A DNA stretch of 59,030 bases, from positions 1 through 59,030 of IMG/VR virus record IMGVR_UViG_3300030406_002145. One strand, written 5' to 3'. The stretch comes from a virus. The first letter of the stretch is position 1; each line of letters begins with the position of its first letter. Below, in pieces: positions 6,321 through 55,797 of the stretch. Below the pieces are notes generated by a model. That model had not been told where the DNA came from. It saw nothing but the letters and a program-made list of their open reading frames with translations, and made no database searches. The position numbers and the translations under genes are program-made.

Positions 6321-7029
6321 TAAAGACTTCAGACCGCGTTTGCAAGGCAACAAAAAAGCGGCATACGATTATTTTACAAAAAAAGAAAGAAGAATCCTTG
6401 TGATAGGAGACATCCATGCACCTTTTGTATTGGATGGATACCTAGAGTTTTGCCAGGATGTTTATGCCAAGCACAACTGCAATCAAGTAATTTTTATAGG
6501 AGACATTTTGGATAACCACTACTCCTCATTCCATCAGACCGACCCGAACGGTATGGGAGGGGGTCAGGAGCTTGAGCATGCTATCAGCATAGTGCAGGAT
6601 TGGTACAAAGCATTTCCGGTGGCAGATGTTCTAATCGGAAACCATGACCGCATCATAATGAGGAAGGCAATAGACTCAGATGTTCCTCAGCAATGGATAA
6701 AAAGTTACAACGAAGTATTAGGAGTAAATTGGAATTGGACAGAAAGAATAGTTTATGATGGTGTTCAGTTCGTCCACGGTGAGGGAGGTACGGCTCGTAC
6801 CAAAGCAAAGAACGATATGATGTCCACCGTGCAGGGTCATATACACACCCAATGTTACACGGAGTGGTTAGTGGGTAGAAACTTTAGAGTGTTTGGAATG
6901 CAGGTGGGATGTGGGATTGACGGCGGCTCATATGCTGCTGCCTATGCTAAACATTTCAAAAAGCAAGCCATTGGATGTGGTGTAATACTTGGCGGTCACA
7001 CCGCAATCAACTGTCTAATGGAGTTGTAG
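6310..7029 (+). CDS. Calcineurin-like metallophosphoesterase
   Basis: A 239-residue protein with the full metallophosphoesterase motif set: GDIHAPF (33-39), GDILDNH (64-70), GNHD (110-113), VHGE (155-158) and GHIHT (176-180). These residues bind a two-metal centre. Phage members act on nucleic acids, nucleotides or 2',3'-cyclic phosphates; the substrate here is unknown. The latter activity would be notable because hammerhead cleavage at 51-56 kb leaves 2',3'-cyclic phosphate ends, but no direct link is seen. The ATG at 6310 is chosen over one at 6289 to limit overlap with the preceding gene. Confidence 0.88.
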   Translation: MKFNKDFRPRLQGNKKAAYDYFTKKERRILVIGDIHAPFVLDGYLEFCQDVYAKHNCNQVIFIGDILDNHYSSFHQTDPNGMGGGQELEHAISIVQDWYKAFPVADVLIGNHDRIIMRKAIDSDVPQQWIKSYNEVLGVNWNWTERIVYDGVQFVHGEGGTARTKAKNDMMSTVQGHIHTQCYTEWLVGRNFRVFGMQVGCGIDGGSYAAAYAKHFKKQAIGCGVILGGHTAINCLMEL

Positions 7030-47089: not shown

Positions 47090-47263
47090 TTAGTAGCCTG
47101 TGCTTTTAGTTTTTTTCTCCATGCCGTATCCCGGATTGTTTTTCATTTTTCCATCCATCATATTTGCAAAAGCACCTGCTTGTGCTTTACCTACTGCATT
47201 ATATGGAAATACTTTCTTTTTCATTGTACCGCTATCAGGGCATTTGTATGTTACTGTTGGCAT
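47090..47263 (-). CDS. Tiny phage protein (MPTVTYKCP family)
   Basis: A 57-residue protein (MPTVTYKCPDSGTMKKKVFP...) with a YNAVGKAQAGAFANMMDG middle. M-P-x-V-x-Y-K-C-P-x-x-G is a common tiny protein of aquatic phages. A TAACTTTG box 30 bases upstream faces leftward; it is the first gene of the tiny-protein/surface-gene operon. Function unknown. Confidence 0.72.
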   Translation of the reverse strand: MPTVTYKCPDSGTMKKKVFPYNAVGKAQAGAFANMMDGKMKNNPGYGMEKKTKSTGY

Positions 47264-47282
47264 ATCTAAACTATTTATTAAT

Positions 47283-47290
47283 TATCTTTG
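47283..47290 (+). promoter_or_regulatory. TATCTTTG promoter box for wHTH regulator
   Basis: Exact TAnnTTTG match 25 bases before the ATG at 47316. It is paired with a leftward box four bases away, forming a compact divergent promoter. Confidence 0.7.
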
Positions 47291-47293
47291 TAG

Positions 47294-47301
47294 CAAAGTT
47301 A
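47294..47301 (-). promoter_or_regulatory. TAACTTTG promoter box, leftward
   Basis: Minus-strand TAnnTTTG match 30 bases upstream of the ATG at 47263, next to the rightward box at 47283. The wHTH regulator encoded to the right could bind here and control late leftward genes (inference). Confidence 0.62.
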
Positions 47302-47315
47302 AGAAAAAAAAATTA

Positions 47316-47750
47316 ATGAAATCAAATTACCTAAAGTATTGGAGAGTGATACGCTACTTCATAAAAGCAAAGTACAAACTATCGCAAGCCGAACTAGATG
47401 TTCTACTCTTTCTCCGTGATGAAAAATATTTCTCCAAAGATAAGTTTGAAGAGTTTAACAACCTGCTGTCATGGGATGTTAATAGATTTGATAAACTGCT
47501 AAGAGATAAATGGATTGAGGTATTTAGAAAGCGACAGGGTAAAAGCAAAACACTATACAGCCTATCCTATAAGTCACAAAGAGTATTAACCTCTATATAC
47601 AATAAGCTTAGCGGTGAAGAGATTCCCACAAGTCAATCTGCCAATCCTATGTTTGCTAAGAATGTGTCTTACTCAGACAAGGTATATAGAAATATGATAT
47701 TAGAGATGAATAAGTTTATAAAACAACAACGACATCTCTCTCCTGAATGA
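47316..47750 (+). CDS. MarR-like winged-helix regulator
   Basis: A 144-residue protein; the ATG after a TATCTTTG box is used, not the longer in-frame opening. It has KYKLSQAELDVLLFLRDEKY (20-39), a turn, NRFDKLLRDKWIEVFRKRQG (63-82) and a wing SKTLYSLSYKSQRVLTSIYN (84-103), the helix-turn-helix-wing order of MarR-type repressors. It is the only rightward gene inside leftward territory and lies at a divergent promoter, so it is a good candidate early/late switch or chaperonin-operon regulator. Its 3' end overlaps groES antisense by 35 bases. Confidence 0.75.
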   Translation: MKSNYLKYWRVIRYFIKAKYKLSQAELDVLLFLRDEKYFSKDKFEEFNNLLSWDVNRFDKLLRDKWIEVFRKRQGKSKTLYSLSYKSQRVLTSIYNKLSGEEIPTSQSANPMFAKNVSYSDKVYRNMILEMNKFIKQQRHLSPE

Positions 47751-47973
47751 TGCCGTACTTCTCATTCTTTATCATCATAGTATGTCCTGACCTGCGGTCA
47801 TAGTATACTGTATCGTCTTTGCTAATAGCTGTCACCTCTGTCCCTGGTGTAACAACCTTACCTTTCTTGTATCGTATATCTTGCATATCGCCTGACCCTA
47901 GAAGCAGTCCTGACTTAGTCTCTATCTGCTCCTCTATAGTTTTAATAATAATATATTTACCTATTGCTTTCAT
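47716..47973 (-). CDS. groES: Phage co-chaperonin GroES
   Basis: An 85-residue Cpn10. Landmarks are VVVVL at the end, SGLLLGSG (21-28) as the mobile loop in which LLL replaces the usual hydrophobic IVL tripeptide that docks on GroEL, and the KKGKVV strand (37-42). It follows groEL and its ATG overlaps the groEL stop, so the order is groEL-groES, reverse of the bacterial operon. It should cap the neighbouring GroEL ring or substitute for host GroES. Slightly shorter than the usual 95 or so residues. Confidence 0.9.
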   Translation of the reverse strand: MKAIGKYIIIKTIEEQIETKSGLLLGSGDMQDIRYKKGKVVTPGTEVTAISKDDTVYYDRRSGHTMMIKNEKYGIIQERDVVVVL

Positions 47974-49580
47974 TTAGTATCATATGTTCTTGCCATAGTT
48001 ACAATAGCATTAGTGCTTAGTATGGTTACCGCTACAGATACTGCGTTCTGTAATGCGTTCTTAGTAACTTTCATAGGGTCTATCACTCCAAGACTTATTA
48101 GATTACCATACTTCTCTTTCTTCACATCATAGCCATGACCCTTAGCCATGTCTTTACTATATATAGCAGAATGCTCTAGTCCTGCATTGTCTAGTATTTG
48201 TTCTAGTGGAGCACTAATCGCTTTAGTTAAAATTGCGTCAGCAATTTTTTGGGAAATATTTTTAGCATCTTTTAAACATTTGTCTGTTGATAACTGATGC
48301 AATGCTCTACCTGCCCCTGGCAGTATCCCTTCCTTCATCGCTGACCTAACGGCACAGACCGCATCATCAACTCTGTCGTATAGTTCTTTTTGCTCTAGGT
48401 CTGTTTTGCCTCCTACATATATCACACCGATGCCTCCCGTTAGTGATGCTATCCTTGACATGATAAACTCACGCTCTACTTTGTCTGATGACAACTTGTG
48501 TGCACCCCACAGCTCCTCTACTCTTTTATTTATCTCGTCATTGTCCTTCTCCTCTGACGAGAGAATAATCGTTGAGTCTCTTCCAACTATCACCTTGGAA
48601 GCTCTACCCAAATCAGGGAAGTCTATTATACTCAAATCATCTCCCGTCTTTTCAGAGAAGTATGTTGAGCCTGTAGATAAAGCAATGTCTTGCATTAGCT
48701 CATGTTGCTTGTAACCGAAGTTGGGAGGAGGTATCACACATATCTTCAATCCCCGCTTCATAACATTAGCCGCTAAAGTATTTAATACATTCTGCGAGCA
48801 TGGTGCTATAATTAGTAATGACTTATTCTCAGCAATCACAGGCTTTAGTATGTTCTCAATATTTAATATGTTAGTTATCTCTGCGTCCGACACAAAGACA
48901 TATGGGTTCTCAAGGATGCACTCATCCTTCTTGTGGTTGTTAACAAACAGTGGATTTGAGTATCCTCTATCTACCTTAACACCCTCCGTACTCTCAAAGT
49001 AGGTGTTGTGAGTCTTAGACTTCTCCACCGTCACAATACCGTTGTCACCAACACTATTATATACATCTGCAATGATTGAGCCTATCACATCGTCATTGTT
49101 AGCACTGATTGTCGCAACTTGTTTAACCTTTGAAGAGGTGACAGGCTTGCTCATCTTCTTTAACTTATCCACCACCTTGTTAGTAGAGTTTACTAGTTCT
49201 CTTAAAACTTCAGTCTTATTACAGTTAGGATACTTCTCCATAACCTCAAGTGCTGACTTTACTAGTGCCTCAGTCAGAACAATAGCTGTGGTAGTACCAT
49301 CACCGGCTGAGGTAGCTGTCCTATCAGCCGCCTCCTTCATCATACGCACCGCTATATTCTCAACAGGGTCTAGGAGTTGAATAGACTTAGCCACAGTCAC
49401 ACCATCCTTTGTTACCGTTAAACTATGGGTATGCTCTGGCGACTCAATGATAACTGTGTTACCACGAGGTCCTAAGGTTGACTTAACTGCTTTTGAGATT
49501 TTTTCTATACCGCTTATTAAGCGTGAGCGACCTTCAGGTCCGAAGTTCAACTCCTTGGGGGTGTATCCTGTTTGATTCAT
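47970..49580 (-). CDS. groEL: Phage chaperonin GroEL (Cpn60)
   Basis: A 536-residue group I chaperonin with all catalytic landmarks: TLGPRGN (35-41), TVTKDG (55-60), SAGDGTTTA (91-99), and RVDDA (403-407) containing the catalytic Asp that corresponds to E. coli Asp398. The apical domain contains VDRGYSNPLF (203-212) and an NTLAANVMKRG segment (267-277) comparable with substrate- and GroES-binding helices, but with substitutions. It lacks the Gly-Gly-Met C-terminal tail of bacterial GroEL. It probably folds virion proteins such as the capsid or the giant ejection protein. A CGACA-marked promoter region lies upstream. Confidence 0.95.
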   Translation of the reverse strand: MNQTGYTPKELNFGPEGRSRLISGIEKISKAVKSTLGPRGNTVIIESPEHTHSLTVTKDGVTVAKSIQLLDPVENIAVRMMKEAADRTATSAGDGTTTAIVLTEALVKSALEVMEKYPNCNKTEVLRELVNSTNKVVDKLKKMSKPVTSSKVKQVATISANNDDVIGSIIADVYNSVGDNGIVTVEKSKTHNTYFESTEGVKVDRGYSNPLFVNNHKKDECILENPYVFVSDAEITNILNIENILKPVIAENKSLLIIAPCSQNVLNTLAANVMKRGLKICVIPPPNFGYKQHELMQDIALSTGSTYFSEKTGDDLSIIDFPDLGRASKVIVGRDSTIILSSEEKDNDEINKRVEELWGAHKLSSDKVEREFIMSRIASLTGGIGVIYVGGKTDLEQKELYDRVDDAVCAVRSAMKEGILPGAGRALHQLSTDKCLKDAKNISQKIADAILTKAISAPLEQILDNAGLEHSAIYSKDMAKGHGYDVKKEKYGNLISLGVIDPMKVTKNALQNAVSVAVTILSTNAIVTMARTYDTK

Positions 49581-50875: not shown

Positions 50876-51475
50876 ATGAGAAATTTATTAACAATTGAGA
50901 GCGATGCATTACTACATCCTGAGCTTATCAACGGATTACAAATCATTAAAATCAATACCATTCAAAGAGCCGTATCCAAGAACGAGATGTCCAAGATTAA
51001 CAATTCAAGAAAGCTATCCAAGATTATGCTCGAGTCATACGAGTATTTCAAAACAAGTGGTAAATCAATCTTAGCAGAACTAGGTGTGTTTTGGACGGCA
51101 GAAGACTTTGGTCAAAAGATATTTGGCTTCAAGAAGTCATACTTTATGAGGATGATTAAGTTTGGTAAGCTAACAGATGAACAAGTCATTGAGTTTACTG
51201 ACAAGTGTAAAGAACTGATTGCAGAGGGCGAGAAGCCATCCATATCTGTACCGAGCTGTTTAGACTACATCAAGCAACAAAACCAATCAGATGGTGGAGA
51301 AGCTACACCAAGACAAACTGAATCAGTTGTTCTTCAGTTGAAATTTATGGGTAAAAAACTCAAGGTAACGGGTGATGGAGATGCTCCCACAATCAAAACT
51401 GATTTTGACTCTGATGATATGGAGGAGTTTAACAGACTGATGGAGATTGTTCAGTCATATATCGGTGACAGATAA
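50876..51475 (+). CDS. Putative DNA-binding/regulatory protein of the ribozyme island
   Basis: A 199-residue protein with a helical centre: a GVFWTAEDFGQKIFGFKKSY stretch (about 65-84) followed by a second helix, resembling a helix-turn-helix segment, then a beta-rich acidic C-terminus. It begins MRNLL with nearly the same leader and first codons (ATGAGAAATTTA) as the amidoligase gene downstream, hinting that leader cassettes were copied. A hammerhead ribozyme follows its stop, so its mRNA is probably cut off from the amidoligase mRNA. Function unknown; a regulator is plausible. Confidence 0.6.
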   Translation: MRNLLTIESDALLHPELINGLQIIKINTIQRAVSKNEMSKINNSRKLSKIMLESYEYFKTSGKSILAELGVFWTAEDFGQKIFGFKKSYFMRMIKFGKLTDEQVIEFTDKCKELIAEGEKPSISVPSCLDYIKQQNQSDGGEATPRQTESVVLQLKFMGKKLKVTGDGDAPTIKTDFDSDDMEEFNRLMEIVQSYIGDR

Positions 51476-51481
51476 CCAAGC

Positions 51482-51503
51482 GAGGTGTACACATGTACAC
51501 CTC
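51482..51503. repeat. GTGTACA inverted repeat abutting hammerhead ribozyme A
   Basis: Arms GAGGTGTACA and TGTACACCTC around CA, seven bases after a stop codon. Its last base is the first base of ribozyme stem III. The core GTGTACACATGTACAC is identical to the stem III sequence of ribozyme C at 55771. Confidence 0.85.
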
Positions 51504-51555
51504 TCTGTCTCAAGGTGTGTGCCTTGACTGATGAGTACAAAAGTACGAAACAGAG
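51503..51555 (+). ncRNA. Hammerhead ribozyme A (type III)
   Basis: All catalytic elements are present. Cleavage triplet GUC is 51507-51509 with predicted cut between 51509 and 51510. Stem I is UCAAGG/CCUUGA (51510-51515 with 51522-51527), core CUGAUGA at 51528-51534, stem II GUAC-AAAA-GUAC (51535-51546), core GAAA at 51547-51550, and open stem III pairs 51503-51508 with 51550-51555. It lies between the 50876 gene and the amidoligase gene, leaving the core on the amidoligase side. Activity is predicted, not shown. Confidence 0.92.
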
Positions 51556-51577
51556 TAACTAAATAAAATTTAAAAAT

Positions 51578-52645
51578 ATGAGAAATTTAAACAACGGTAT
51601 TGATTACACACCAATACCCGATAACTATCCTAGAACTGAAATCCATGGATGGCATGGTACTAAAGGATGGGACAAAGACCTAGCCAAAGGGGGCAAAAGA
51701 TATGATTTAAGAGGGTTTACAAGAGCCACAATCAACAAGAATCTAATCACTTATGCAAATGACACCTATGAGTCAAAGTACAAGATAGGGTTTGAGGTTG
51801 AGAAGAATTACTTTCACACCTCTTTGGATTCAAGAAGCCAAGATGTAGGTAAATTATTAGAGTTATTCAGAGGGTACGAGACTGATGGCTCTTGTGGAGT
51901 TGAAGCCGTAACAAACATCTTACCACTATTACCGAATGGTATATGGAGAACTAAAGTGTATGATATGATGCATCAAGCAGAGACCATATTGGATGATAGA
52001 TGGAGTGGTTCAGATTCTCGTTGTGGTGGTCACATTAACCTATCGGTAGTTGGATGGAGTGGTGAAAGATTATTCAAAGCTATACGAGAGTTTAGTGGTT
52101 TGATACAATCTCTGTATCGATTGAGGTTATACAGAACAGAGTACCATATTCGTAATATTGGAGAAGATTTCTGTAATCAGAATATGAATATGATATGCCC
52201 AAGTTCAGAAGATTACTCGATATCATTAAAAGCATTAAATAGTGGTTTGCAGAGGTCAATACCAGGCTCAAGATATAACTTTTGTAGTCAGTATTCCAAT
52301 CGTATTGAGTTTAGAGTCCCTCCAAGAGTGACATCTGTAAAGTGTCTGATGCTCAGATACCAATTGTTCTATGAGTTGGTTGACTTTGCAGTAACCTACG
52401 AGGGCAGAGTTACACCACAGACTCGTAAGAAGTTCTACAACAAGGTTAGACCAATCATTCTTGATATGTCTGATGGTAATGTGGACAAGGCAAGAACAAT
52501 CATATCAGATGCAAGATACTTTCAACAGTTCATTGACACCAAGGGGGATTTCAGAAACAATGCAGTAATCAAAGCATTCATTAATCCTACAAGACAAGTG
52601 GACAGGGACAGAAGAAAGAGATGGTTGAATGGGGAGTGGAGATAG
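51578..52645 (+). CDS. Amidoligase (COOH-NH2 ligase, glutamine synthetase-like fold)
   Basis: A 355-residue protein with the motifs of the Amidoligase_2/COOH-NH2 ligase family: GFEVEKNYF (71-79; Glu73, Glu75), YETDGSCGVEAVT (100-112; Asp103, Glu109), CGGHINLS (149-156; His152) and NRIEFRVPP (241-249; Glu244, Arg246). Related enzymes couple ATP hydrolysis to forming an amide bond between a carboxylate and an amine, and are known in phages alongside glutamine amidotransferase and gamma-glutamylcyclotransferase genes. Here such a fusion protein is encoded at 54674. The substrate (a peptide, protein, nucleotide or cell-wall component) is unknown. The gene is flanked by two hammerhead ribozymes. 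Confidence 0.85.
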   Translation: MRNLNNGIDYTPIPDNYPRTEIHGWHGTKGWDKDLAKGGKRYDLRGFTRATINKNLITYANDTYESKYKIGFEVEKNYFHTSLDSRSQDVGKLLELFRGYETDGSCGVEAVTNILPLLPNGIWRTKVYDMMHQAETILDDRWSGSDSRCGGHINLSVVGWSGERLFKAIREFSGLIQSLYRLRLYRTEYHIRNIGEDFCNQNMNMICPSSEDYSISLKALNSGLQRSIPGSRYNFCSQYSNRIEFRVPPRVTSVKCLMLRYQLFYELVDFAVTYEGRVTPQTRKKFYNKVRPIILDMSDGNVDKARTIISDARYFQQFIDTKGDFRNNAVIKAFINPTRQVDRDRRKRWLNGEWR

Positions 52646-52657
52646 CACTCCCCCAAA

Positions 52658-52716
52658 GTTACTCTGATGAGGATTCAATATCCGAAAGTGGTCAGAATAC
52701 CTGACTACTAAGTAAC
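52658..52716 (+). ncRNA. Hammerhead ribozyme B (type I)
   Basis: Stem I GUUACU/AGUAAC (52658-52663 with 52711-52716), core CUGAUGA at 52664-52670, stem II GGAU-UCAAU-AUCC (52671-52683), core GAAA at 52684-52687, and stem III pairing 52687-52695 with 52701-52709 around a five-base loop, with one G-U pair. Cleavage triplet CUA ends at 52710; predicted cut between 52710 and 52711. It begins 13 bases after the amidoligase stop and leaves its core on the amidoligase RNA. Confidence 0.93.
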
Positions 52717-52743
52717 AATAATAACTTTTAAATAAATAAAATT

Positions 52744-52947
52744 ATGAGAATAAAAATAGAAGATTACTATGGGAATGATATAGTGGAATTAAATGTTAAA
52801 AAATTAGATAATAACAAATATGAGGATAATATATTTCACCGAAACAAGATTGATATTATAGAAACAGATGAATATAATATAGCAGATGTAGATGAAGATG
52901 AGAAAGGAGAGTATTTAAGAATACAACTAAGTAACAATAAAATTTAA
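52744..52947 (+). CDS. Hypothetical small acidic protein
   Basis: A 67-residue acidic, beta-rich protein (MRIKIEDYYGNDIVELNVKK...). It follows the leader AAATAAATAAAATT, which also precedes several other genes in this island. It is the first gene after ribozyme B. No family recognised. Confidence 0.62.
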   Translation: MRIKIEDYYGNDIVELNVKKLDNNKYEDNIFHRNKIDIIETDEYNIADVDEDEKGEYLRIQLSNNKI

Positions 52948-52965
52948 AATTAAAAATAATTAACT

Positions 52966-53178
52966 ATGAAAAATAAAATAACCTACGATGACACAAGAGA
53001 CATCGCAATAAGAATTATTGAATTTCTTTTAGATAAGCACTATCTAAGTGAAGATAAGCATATCCAAATGGAGTTGGACGACGAGTGGGATTTTTATCTC
53101 CAAGATGGAATACAAGATAAGATAAATGATGTACTAGGATTAGACATCGATGATAAATTTGAAATAACAATTAAATAA
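52966..53178 (+). CDS. Hypothetical small acidic protein
   Basis: A 70-residue acidic, mostly helical protein (MKNKITYDDTRDIAIRIIEF...) preceded by AAAAATAATTAACT, the same leader as the gene at 53259. The two also share the D-x-I-L/E-F-LLD-x-x-Y/H-L/I pattern and may be distant paralogues. No family recognised. Confidence 0.6.
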   Translation: MKNKITYDDTRDIAIRIIEFLLDKHYLSEDKHIQMELDDEWDFYLQDGIQDKINDVLGLDIDDKFEITIK

Positions 53179-53258
53179 ATAAAAATGATTATAATAATAA
53201 CAATTTTAAATATAATAACTAAAACAATATTAAATATAACTTTTAAAAATAATTAACT

Positions 53259-53414
53259 ATGAAAGCAATTTGGAATCAAAAAATTGATAATACTACTGAA
53301 AAAATAACAGATAACATTTTAGATTATTTGTTGGACAATGGGTATATAACAAAAAATATAGATGAGGGGGAGAATATATACTCAATAGTGAGTAAAGAAT
53401 TAAAAAAATTATAA
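53259..53414 (+). CDS. Hypothetical small protein, possible paralogue of previous gene
   Basis: A 51-residue helical protein (MKAIWNQKIDNTTEKITDNI...). Its ITDNILDYLLDNGYITKN (16-33) resembles the DIAIRIIEFLLDKHYLSED region of the upstream 70-residue protein, and both share the leader AAAAATAATTAACT. Function unknown. Confidence 0.55.
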   Translation: MKAIWNQKIDNTTEKITDNILDYLLDNGYITKNIDEGENIYSIVSKELKKL

Positions 53415-53443
53415 CTATAAATAACAATTAAATAAATAAAATT

Positions 53444-53563
53444 ATGGAAAAAGAAAAATGTAAATTTTGTGATAGCAAAGAATTAGTTTATCATCAGTAT
53501 ATAATATGCGACTATTATTGCGAAGAATGTGGAGAGTGGCAAAATGGAGAAACAATTAAATAA
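53444..53563 (+). CDS. Tiny zinc-ribbon protein
   Basis: A 39-residue protein with CKFC (6-9) and CEEC (26-29), an ideal two-CxxC zinc ribbon with little else. Preceded by AAATAAATAAAATT. Similar knuckles are in the amidotransferase fusion C-terminus and the 58510 protein. It may bind RNA, DNA or a protein partner. Confidence 0.68.
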   Translation: MEKEKCKFCDSKELVYHQYIICDYYCEECGEWQNGETIK

Positions 53564-53571
53564 TTAAAACT

Positions 53572-53751
53572 ATGAAAAATCAATTAAACATAAAAGAATT
53601 ACAATTAATACAAGATTTAATTGTTGATTGGAAATTTAACAGAGATGTTTTGAATCAATTACCCATATCAGATGACAAAAAAGATTTGTTAGATGAAATA
53701 GGCGAAAAATTATTAAATCAAATAAGACAACAAAAAAAATTAAAACTATGA
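53572..53751 (+). CDS. Hypothetical small helical protein
   Basis: A 59-residue charged helical protein (MKNQLNIKELQLIQDLIVDW...) whose stop overlaps the next start as ATGA. No family recognised. Confidence 0.58.
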   Translation: MKNQLNIKELQLIQDLIVDWKFNRDVLNQLPISDDKKDLLDEIGEKLLNQIRQQKKLKL

Positions 53752-53921
53752 AAATATACAGACAATATAAAGATGAAAATACAAGTGAACAAGTTAGTGT
53801 AGAAACATTCTTGCATTATACTGAGGGCAGTGGTTTTTGGGAAAAAGGCACTGCATTAGAAACATTAAAACAATCCGGTGTTATACACACAAGTTTTGCA
53901 ATATACAAACTAAATAAATAA
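53748..53921 (+). CDS. Hypothetical small protein
   Basis: A 57-residue protein (MKIYRQYKDENTSEQVSVET...) coupled to the previous gene by an ATGA overlap. No family recognised. Confidence 0.58.
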   Translation: MKIYRQYKDENTSEQVSVETFLHYTEGSGFWEKGTALETLKQSGVIHTSFAIYKLNK

Positions 53922-53925
53922 AATT

Positions 53926-54051
53926 ATGGACACAATTAAAGAATTAAAAGAATTAGTATCTCTTTTTAAATACAGAGAACGATGTACCAACGATAGTATA
54001 ATAATGGTGGGTGATTTAGAAAAATTAGAAGAATTGATAAATAAATTATAA
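53926..54051 (+). CDS. Hypothetical tiny protein
   Basis: A 41-residue helical protein (MDTIKELKELVSLFKYRERC...) preceded by AAATAAATAAAATT. Coding potential is supported only by spacing, leader and neighbours. Confidence 0.5.
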   Translation: MDTIKELKELVSLFKYRERCTNDSIIMVGDLEKLEELINKL

Positions 54052-54055
54052 AATT

Positions 54056-54211
54056 ATGGACAAGTTAACAAGACAGTTGTTTAAACTAAAATCTTTAGAG
54101 TTGAGGAATGGAACATCTCCGTTCCTCGCTCAACAAATGCAAAAGGTCAGAGACAAGATTGATGCACAAAAAGAGTGTACACGCGTACACCTTAACAAGG
54201 TTTGTAAGTGA
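54056..54211 (+). CDS. Hypothetical small basic protein
   Basis: A 51-residue basic protein (MDKLTRQLFKLKSLELRNGT...) starting four bases after the previous stop. Its 3' end contains GTGTACACGCGTACAC, an imperfect relative of the genome's GTGTACA palindromes. No family recognised. Confidence 0.52.
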   Translation: MDKLTRQLFKLKSLELRNGTSPFLAQQMQKVRDKIDAQKECTRVHLNKVCK

Positions 54212-54248
54212 CTGAGTATCAGTGAAGTGCAAACTTTTTTCAAAAAGA

Positions 54249-54280
54249 TTTGGTGGTTAAATTTATTTCACTTATCTTTA
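54249..54280 (+). promoter_or_regulatory. Strong Bacteroidota promoter: TTTG-N20-TATCTTTA
   Basis: TTTG at 54249-54252 and TATCTTTA at 54273-54280, exactly 20 bases apart. The same spacing is seen at 54584 and 56534. Transcription should start near 54286, producing an RNA without a substantial gene before the next promoter. Confidence 0.8.
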
Positions 54281-54285
54281 CAATG

Positions 54286-54600
54286 TTTTTAAATTTTTCA
54301 TGTGGTGTGGTGGTTGACAAATGAGATTGAGTTCTCGCCATCACACCATCTACTAAATAAAATTTTGCCTAACAATCCTTAGAGTGATAAATATAGTGTA
54401 CACCATTAGGAACTTAGAGTTTATGGAATGTTGCTTAGCTACCAACAGGAAGTAAATGCTCAATACAAAGTTAAAAGAAATTTTATACTAAAGACAAGGC
54501 ATAGTTCAAAGACATCATAGGGGTTGATGTTGAGGACTGTGCCTTTGTTCGTTTATAGAGGTCATAAAAAACTTTCTCTAAAATTTGGATATGTCTAAAT
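54286..54600 (+). ncRNA. Candidate structured non-coding RNA
   Basis: Between two promoters lies a region with only 10-13-codon frames but strong predicted folding. Hairpin one pairs 54302-54313 with 54338-54349 (GUGGUGUGGUGG against CCAUCACACCAU) around a loop with an inner GAGA/UCUC pairing. Hairpin two is 50 nt (54496-54545): AAGGCAUAGUUC with GGACUGUGCCUU, and a second inner stem GACAUCA/UGAUGUU. A structured small RNA or long 5' leader is likely. No known family was recognised. Confidence 0.65.
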
Positions 54601-54615
54601 TTTGTCTTATCTTTG
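54584..54615 (+). promoter_or_regulatory. Strong Bacteroidota promoter: TTTG-N20-TATCTTTG
   Basis: TTTG at 54584-54587 and TATCTTTG at 54608-54615 with 20 bases between them. It drives the amidotransferase-cyclotransferase gene through a leader of about 50 nt with an ACCTCT/AGAGGT hairpin. This position shows that the coding start must be downstream, at 54674. Confidence 0.88.
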
Positions 54616-54673
54616 TGTAATACTAACCGAGTTCTACCTCTCAGTTATAGAGGTTGCTCACAAAATTTATACT

Positions 54674-55738
54674 ATGTGTATTATAATAATCAAACAACAG
54701 AAGGACAAGAAAGTCCACAAGCAAACATTAAAAAATTCATCTCGTATCAATCCTCATGGGTTGGGGGTTGTGTGGTTAGATACCTTTGAGGTTACCTACC
54801 ACAAGTCAAATGAGTATGCCATCTTACATACTGAAAGACCATTCATTGCTCACTTTAGATATGCTACCATCGGCAAGGTAAACAGAGAAAACACACATCC
54901 CTTTGTGTGTGGTAATAATTCTGATGAGTTGCTTATGATGAACGGAACGATTCGTAATCTTGGTAATGACACTATGTGTGATAGTAAAGTTCTCGCACAC
55001 TCTCTCGGCAGAGTCAAGCGACAGAATTGGAAAAGCGAGTTGGCTAAGTATGATTGTAGGTTTACTACTATCAACACTCGTACTAGGACATTTCAAATCT
55101 ACAACAAAGAGTTGTGGACAAAAAAGAATGGTGTGTGGTACTCTAAGCCAAATGTACTTATGGACAATCTCGTTGCAGTGTATGGTACATTGAAGAAAGG
55201 TTACAATAATTACAATTCTTATCTAAGAAGAAGTGTATACCTTGGGGGCGGTGTTACTACGGACAAGTATCCTCTTATAATAAGGGGGTTGCCTTATATG
55301 GTAAATCAAAAAGGTATGGGACACAATGTTGAGGTTGATGTGTTCAAGGTGTCTGATGAAGTTCTTGAAAACCTTGATAGGTTAGAGGGGCATCCGGAGT
55401 GGTACAAGCGAGAAAAGGTTGAGATAAATGTAAAGGGCAAGGTGCTATCTTGTTGGGTTTATTTCAATCCCATAGACATCTCAGGTGCTATTGAGTTTCA
55501 CAAAACCTACACACAACAAACTTCTATACCATCATACACTCCTACTGATTATGATTGGAGTCAACACACCTTTGACTTTGATGATGATGATGATGACTCA
55601 TCTATGATTGTTGAGGATGGTAAGCCATACTGTGTGGAGTGCTTCAATGAATTAGAGAACGATGGATACGATAACTACTGTTGCAAGGGTTGTCATAGTT
55701 GGTATACTCAAAACCAAATAAATAACTTAAATTATTAA
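54674..55738 (+). CDS. Class II glutamine amidotransferase fused to gamma-glutamylcyclotransferase and zinc ribbon
   Basis: A 354-residue three-part protein. The start is the ATG giving Met-Cys, as class II amidotransferases need Cys2 as the N-terminal nucleophile. Amidotransferase motifs are NPHGLGVVW (26-34), HFRYATIGKVNRENTHPF (60-77), MMNGTIRN (88-95) and CDSKVLA (102-108). Residues about 165-275 are a GGCT/AIG2-type cyclotransferase: VAVYGTLKKGYN (167-178) and RLEGHPEWYKRE (236-247), with Glu238 as likely catalytic acid. A poly-Asp linker (about 302-308) leads to a zinc ribbon with CVEC and CCKGC. It should take ammonia from glutamine and handle gamma-glutamyl amides, complementing the amidoligase at 51578. 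Fusion is unusual. Confidence 0.88.
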   Translation: MCIIIIKQQKDKKVHKQTLKNSSRINPHGLGVVWLDTFEVTYHKSNEYAILHTERPFIAHFRYATIGKVNRENTHPFVCGNNSDELLMMNGTIRNLGNDTMCDSKVLAHSLGRVKRQNWKSELAKYDCRFTTINTRTRTFQIYNKELWTKKNGVWYSKPNVLMDNLVAVYGTLKKGYNNYNSYLRRSVYLGGGVTTDKYPLIIRGLPYMVNQKGMGHNVEVDVFKVSDEVLENLDRLEGHPEWYKREKVEINVKGKVLSCWVYFNPIDISGAIEFHKTYTQQTSIPSYTPTDYDWSQHTFDFDDDDDDSSMIVEDGKPYCVECFNELENDGYDNYCCKGCHSWYTQNQINNLNY

Positions 55739-55797
55739 TTACTCTGATGAGTCCTTTGTGGACGAAACAAGTGTACACATGTACACTTGTCAGTAAT
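55738..55797 (+). ncRNA. Hammerhead ribozyme C (type I)
   Basis: Stem I AUUACU/AGUAAU (55738-55743 with 55792-55797), core CUGAUGA at 55744-55750, stem II GUCC-UUUGU-GGAC (55751-55763), core GAAA at 55764-55767, stem III of ten pairs between 55767-55776 and 55781-55790 made from the GTGTACA palindrome, and cleavage triplet GUC ending at 55791. Predicted cut between 55791 and 55792. Its first base is the last base of the upstream stop codon, so a terminating ribosome would block folding. Confidence 0.95.

Follow-up and report, generated by a model that had tools for sequence, protein, structure and literature searches.

To our knowledge, the purpose of hammerhead ribozymes in phage genomes is still open. 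The locus described here, in which three hammerheads lie beside early genes, raises the question directly: what becomes of a phage transcript that carries such motifs between its genes? The locus is part of an IMG/VR virus record of 59,030 bases and 35% GC that was analysed as a whole and is called the window hereafter. The window is a Flavobacteria-type phage: its terminase is closest to those of Flavobacteriia phages (77% identical in MW202828, with 47% identity in Flavobacterium elemo phages and about 38% in Cellulophaga phages). Early genes occupy its plus strand and structural genes its minus strand.

Both strands of the window were scanned with a strict hammerhead descriptor (CUGANGA, stem II, GAA, A15.1-U16.1, NUH, stems I and III). 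Exactly three matches were obtained, each of them on the early strand and designated A, B and C in what follows, while dinucleotide-shuffled windows yielded 0.017 matches each. Hammerhead A (51503–51555) is of type III, with a predicted cut between 51509 and 51510; it consists of stem III CUCUGU/ACAGAG, the triplet GUC preceding the cut, a stem I of 7 bp, CUGAUGA, stem II GUAC/GUAC and GAA. Hammerheads B and C are of type I. B (52658–52716, predicted cut between 52710 and 52711) has stem I GUUACU/AGUAAC, stem II GGAU/AUCC, a stem III of 9 bp and a cut after CUA, and C (55738–55797, predicted cut between 55791 and 55792) has stem I AUUACU/AGUAAU, stem II GUCC/GGAC, a stem III of 10 bp and a cut after GUC. 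Stem III of C is the repeated palindrome of the window genome and appears as such in the palindrome list. The CUGANGA and GAA core, the NUH triplet and three helices in the proper order are present in all three. A preliminary description, made from the nucleotide sequence, had proposed these same ribozymes and cut sites, and the segment between the predicted cuts of A and B, 51510–52710, indeed measures 1201 nt.

At the gathering threshold Rfam reported nothing in the window. In E-value mode A matched Hammerhead_3 (RF00008; 41.1 bits, E 1.5e-6) and C matched RAGATH-1-hammerhead (RF03152; 29.9 bits), below the respective cut-offs of 48.5 and 56.3, a gathering score being a curated sensitivity threshold and not a mechanistic feature; B had no Rfam match. 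Both A and C align across the whole model with the expected core, but differ from these families in loops and stem lengths. Covariance models derived from relatives gave 75.3 bits for A (R1) and 59.1 and 54.0 bits for C and B (R2), the training sequences of these models having included all three window ribozymes. No further hammerhead above 15 bits was found in the window with them.

All features around the ribozymes are on the plus strand. The first gene of the array, a 199-aa ORF taken from the ORF list (50876–51475) and without a Pfam or PHROG match, ends just before A. The hairpin GAGGTGTACACATGTACACCTC (51482–51503), seen in the sequence and in its fold, directly precedes cut A, and the region 51470–51509 folds with −16.4 kcal/mol. 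Between ribozyme A and the next ATG is a leader whose sequence is A/T-rich (51556–51577), and the distance from cut A to that ATG, 68 nt, equals the family median for type III. The ORF that follows (51578–52645, 355 aa) had been labelled an amidoligase. Its product has no Pfam or PHROG match, so no sequence family stands behind the label; its structure, predicted from 44 aligned sequences including relatives (pLDDT 84.2, pTM 0.88), points to a fold of the glutamine synthetase type. The best PDB matches in Foldseek were glutamine synthetases, YbdK, glutamate-cysteine ligase (GCL) and PafA, with E from 1.7e-4 and probabilities of 0.96–1.0 at a TM of only about 0.3, and every match at E ≤ 0.001 had the glutamine-synthetase/YbdK ligase fold. 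At the level of this predicted fold only, the name is reasonable.

The stretch between the cuts of B and C, 52711–55791, had been put forward as a second released unit. It holds several small ORFs, a long non-coding stretch and a promoter-like sequence of the Bacteroidetes type (54584–54615), found by pattern match upstream of the last gene, so that a single released unit is doubtful here. The promoter pattern gave 7 matches where 4.5 were expected, which is not significant by count; a similar block precedes the corresponding gene in the related locus L001. This last gene (54674–55738) encodes a class II glutamine amidotransferase joined to a gamma-glutamyl cyclotransferase (GATase-GGCT), as identified by Pfam, PHROG 2520 and alignment. 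Its product starts Met-Cys, and the Pfam matches on the longer ORF were GGACT (5.9e-22) and GATase_6 (2e-4).

A protein search with the amidoligase-like product returned two close loci, and a search with a small alignment returned 80; the window and these 80 IMG/VR relatives make up 81 amidoligase loci. In L001, the nearest relative, whose amidoligase is 56–59% identical to that of the window, each of the three junctions again carries a hammerhead; the types match those of A, B and C, while the stems have changed. Across the 80 relatives the descriptor found 121 hammerheads, 121 of them on the gene strand and none on the opposite strand, and a single one in shuffled sequence. The covariance models raised the number in relatives to 137 of type III and 34 of type I, again every one on the gene strand, giving 174 hammerheads in the 81 loci, window included. 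Neither strand nor position formed any part of hit selection. An ORF stop lies at most 120 nt upstream in 170/174 hammerheads and an ATG-started ORF at most 135 nt downstream in 171/174, and the spacing from cut to ATG is tight, type I cuts having a median of 24 nt and type III cuts one of 68 nt. The upstream gene is the amidoligase in 67 cases, GATase-GGCT in 29 and a homologue of the 199-aa gene in 15, which mark the B, C and A junctions, respectively. Loci carry between 0 and 5 hammerheads, and 55/81 carry at least two; these loci, among them the window with its three, harbour clustered, gene-flanking phage hammerheads.

The stems covary among the relatives. Cores stay intact and stems differ between loci whose proteins share only some 40 percent identity. 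Of the cells in the stems of the relatives' hammerheads, 93.8 and 100 percent are paired, and for stem I of type III the figure across its seven positions reaches 99.5%. When the pairing was slid by one to three columns as a control, total pairing dropped to 20–43%. Part of this covariation is built in, because the models came from descriptor hits chosen by their stem pairing.

The arrangement of types is far less constant than the junctions. Downstream of the amidoligase there is a type III hammerhead in 64 loci and a type I in 2, and upstream of it a type III in 11 loci and a type I in 7. Around the gene the layout is III...I in 2 of the 81 loci, I...III in 7 and III...III in 8, and 49 have a downstream type III only. 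The two III...I pairs, which face inward, are those of the window and L001; among adjacent hammerhead pairs overall this order makes up 15/102, with about 20 expected under random mixing of types, and is not enriched. An amidoligase RNA with a ribozyme core at each end, as the preliminary description had it, is thus what the predicted 1201-nt product of the window would be, but a conserved two-core unit is rejected. Because types I and III interchange at the same junction, it is the cut between genes that the sequences indicate is kept, not the retention of a core at each end of the amidoligase RNA.

A further regularity concerns what lies upstream of the cut. A strong hairpin (below −6 kcal/mol) directly precedes 122 of 124 type III copies; the 41 nt ahead of these cuts have a mean minimum free energy (MFE) of −17.4 kcal/mol, while shuffled sequence averages −8.1 and in-gene sequence −5.3. 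For type I it is stem III that would form the 3' end of the upstream product. Since type III follows a hairpin and type I ends in stem III, the upstream mRNA would be hairpin-ended under either permutation. In the fold of the 51510–52710 product a hairpin starts at the first nucleotide, and a 9-bp hairpin ends one base before the last.

At the core of many of these hairpins is a palindrome particular to each genome: the window has GTGTACACATGTACAC, and many relatives have GTGTCTTCAAAGACAC. Such palindromes (GTGTACACATGTACAC, GTGTCGTTAACGACAC, GTGTCTTCAAAGACAC, GAGAGTTCAAACTCTC) occur several times per locus (in the window, L003, L002, L057 and others), mostly in intergenic positions and often beside or inside hammerheads; the window sites are at 7029, 31485, 51485, 54175 and 55771. 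The core also repeats where there are no hammerheads: MW202828 (L003) has 14 copies of the palindrome arm in one 20.9-kb stretch and zero hammerheads. The palindromes could be repressor operators or 3'-end hairpins. At 47100–47750 the window has a lone plus-strand ORF amid minus-strand genes (PHROG 17028, function not assigned), which is a candidate binder of the palindrome because in MW202828 a repressor is annotated at a similar position, next to the chaperonin genes. Chaperonin-like genes for a GroEL-like protein of 536 aa and a GroES-like protein of 85 aa are found at 47716–49580 of the window and are annotated in MW202828 as well.

Since relatives keep cut sites at the same gene junctions, the likely role of the hammerheads is to chop one long transcript. 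We consider it probable, on the strength of sequence comparison, that they cut a polycistronic early transcript between genes into short, linear, hairpin-ended mRNAs. A, B and C would act at gene junctions of the long early transcript while transcription is ongoing, and each cut would leave the gene ahead of it with a 3' end of its own, closed off by a stable hairpin: the separate upstream one at type III sites, stem III at type I sites. The hairpin GAGGTGTACACATGTACACCTC would in this way form the 3' end of the 199-aa mRNA. The downstream gene would receive a new 5'-OH end. In type III products the stem I hairpin would start right at this end, whereas type I products would open with an unstructured leader about 24 nt long. 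Among these products would be the amidoligase mRNA, which would start with A and finish with B, and the outcome would be short mRNAs whose stability and translation could be set gene by gene. What the sequences show is how the ribozymes are built, which strand and junctions they occupy, that they go with hairpins and that they are conserved; from this we infer cleavage in the cell and the persistence of the products as stabilised linear mRNAs. Some observations weigh against transcript segmentation. The gene order does not depend on cutting, since nine loci have no hammerhead at all and L003 has the repeated hairpins only; in a few relatives (L021, L016) the core looks damaged at or after A9; and the MFE structure of the uncut A–B precursor favours a long-range pairing, or panhandle, over both ribozymes, which co-transcriptional folding may avoid.

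That panhandle is the starting point of another account of the same RNA. The MFE structure of the 1201-nt product contains a perfect 10-bp pairing, worth 9.2 kcal/mol, between a possible 5' arm CAGAGUAACU (51551–51560) and a possible 3' arm AGUUACUCUG (52657–52666), the latter overlapping stem I and core of B; the arms are the strands of A and B that the two cuts set free. Flanking hammerheads might then excise whole phage mRNAs that persist as panhandle-locked or circular single-gene messages, the amidoligase message included, which we regard as highly improbable. For the amidoligase RNA itself, end-locked by the panhandle or joined at its ends by an RtcB-type ligase of the host, our estimate is equally low. 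The chemistry would suit it in principle, as hammerhead-class cleavage leaves 5'-OH and 2',3'-cyclic phosphate ends. RtcB was found in 57/118 sampled Bacteroidota genomes, so that a host might supply it, and no match to RtcB in 12 phage records or to the RNA_ligase family in 13 was obtained; a phage-encoded enzyme of either kind was therefore discarded for the records searched. The L001 unit has a panhandle too, of unrelated sequence, and leader shuffling gave P of about 0.03 for each of the two, both having been spotted post hoc. Over the 15 III...I units, however, true end pairs scored hardly better than mismatched ones (−7.4 vs −6.7 kcal/mol), and a conserved panhandle is unsupported. The pairing is partly explained by the AGUAAC leader element with which stem I of B pairs, as the leader of A also has it. 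The III...I layout around the amidoligase is moreover not conserved beyond L001, and both termini form hairpins of their own, leaving no exposed ligation stem. Perreault et al. 2011 (PMC3088659) searched their own systems for RNA circles and splice products and saw neither. Of the suggestion that the mRNA is end-protected or circular, the first half is plausible because both product ends are hairpins; a circular RNA is possible, and no finding here requires it. If true, it would mean that a DNA phage makes a ribozyme-born circular mRNA.

The layout had also been likened to retrozymes, non-coding retroelements which give circles able to re-form the ribozyme. Both are RNA segments bounded by two hammerheads, but the likeness goes no further: the permutations differ (A is of type III and B of type I), the window RNA codes for a conserved 355-aa protein of a phage operon, and the 52710-to-51510 junction, CUGACUACUA followed by UCAAGG, is by its sequence not a hammerhead substrate with either core. 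The joined ends rebuild no hammerhead, and on all these grounds a retrozyme identity was rejected.

Two other explanations take the ribozymes as something other than cutters of a transcript into genes. They may be regulated switches whose cleavage, and with it the expression of amidoligase and GATase-GGCT, depends on a bound protein or metabolite; the palindromic hairpins might be the place of binding. Hammerheads about 20 nt before start codons, next to metabolic genes, would fit this, as would palindromes that adjoin the hammerheads or form part of them; yet no extra conserved domain or aptamer-like insert is present, the type III model having only 53 positions, and types III and I swap at one junction, so we think regulation of this kind unlikely. 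They may alternatively be passenger motifs of little function, spread by recombination between repeated intergenic hairpins, which are commoner than hammerheads and also occur without them; the varying number per locus, from 0 to 5, agrees with such spread. The strict strand bias and recurrent junctions argue against it, as do cores that stay intact with changed stems while the proteins diverge, and we judge it very unlikely.

Segmentation of transcripts by prophage hammerheads is not a new idea: it was already proposed in 2011. According to Perreault et al. 2011 (PMC3088659), mixed-type hammerheads cluster in prophages around one gene or a short gene block, on the coding strand; they are proposed to process transcripts into operon- or gene-length mRNAs, and gave the expected fragments in vitro, the Agrobacterium tumefaciens cluster being cleaved in E. 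coli. The present arrays resemble those clusters, such as the A. tumefaciens ardA triple cluster, in having several gene-flanking hammerheads of mixed type. They differ in belonging to one phage group, in their defined junctions (after the 199-aa gene, the amidoligase and GATase-GGCT) and in the stable hairpin that nearly every type III copy follows, an association not mentioned in the passages of that paper that were consulted. No later account of phage hammerhead arrays was found in the literature outside subscription journals.

Similar ribozymes also occur outside the amidoligase loci. Hammerheads separate early genes in two cultured phages of the same wider group as the window: one of type III (44.7 bits) and one of type I (55.6 bits) in elemoA_7-9A, and one of type I (37.5 bits) in Cellulophaga phi18:3. 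Some 0.9 kb downstream of the phi18:3 hammerhead (L225, KC821620; 2905–2959, minus strand) is an annotated ardA, a gene that Perreault et al. 2011 (PMC3088659) also link to hammerheads. Closely similar type III hammerheads were seen in MAG contigs assigned to Patescibacteria (CPR) and to other bacteria (L206–L219), some with several on one strand within 2 kb, and four viral contigs (L122, L137, L188 and L106) have four to eight on one strand in about 10 kb. A Cytophagales MAG contig (L220), which may be a prophage or binned phage, has the same module of a hairpin, GGGGAGTGTCTTCAAAGACACTCCC, followed by a type III ribozyme.

The hairpin and ribozyme thus form a regular device, conserved at fixed gene junctions through large protein divergence. 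Because cultured elemoA_7-9A and phi18:3 carry such ribozymes, transcript segmentation is open to direct testing. The device points to a way in which these phages may form mRNA 3' ends gene by gene while the polymerase runs on: a terminator, in effect, that lets transcription continue.
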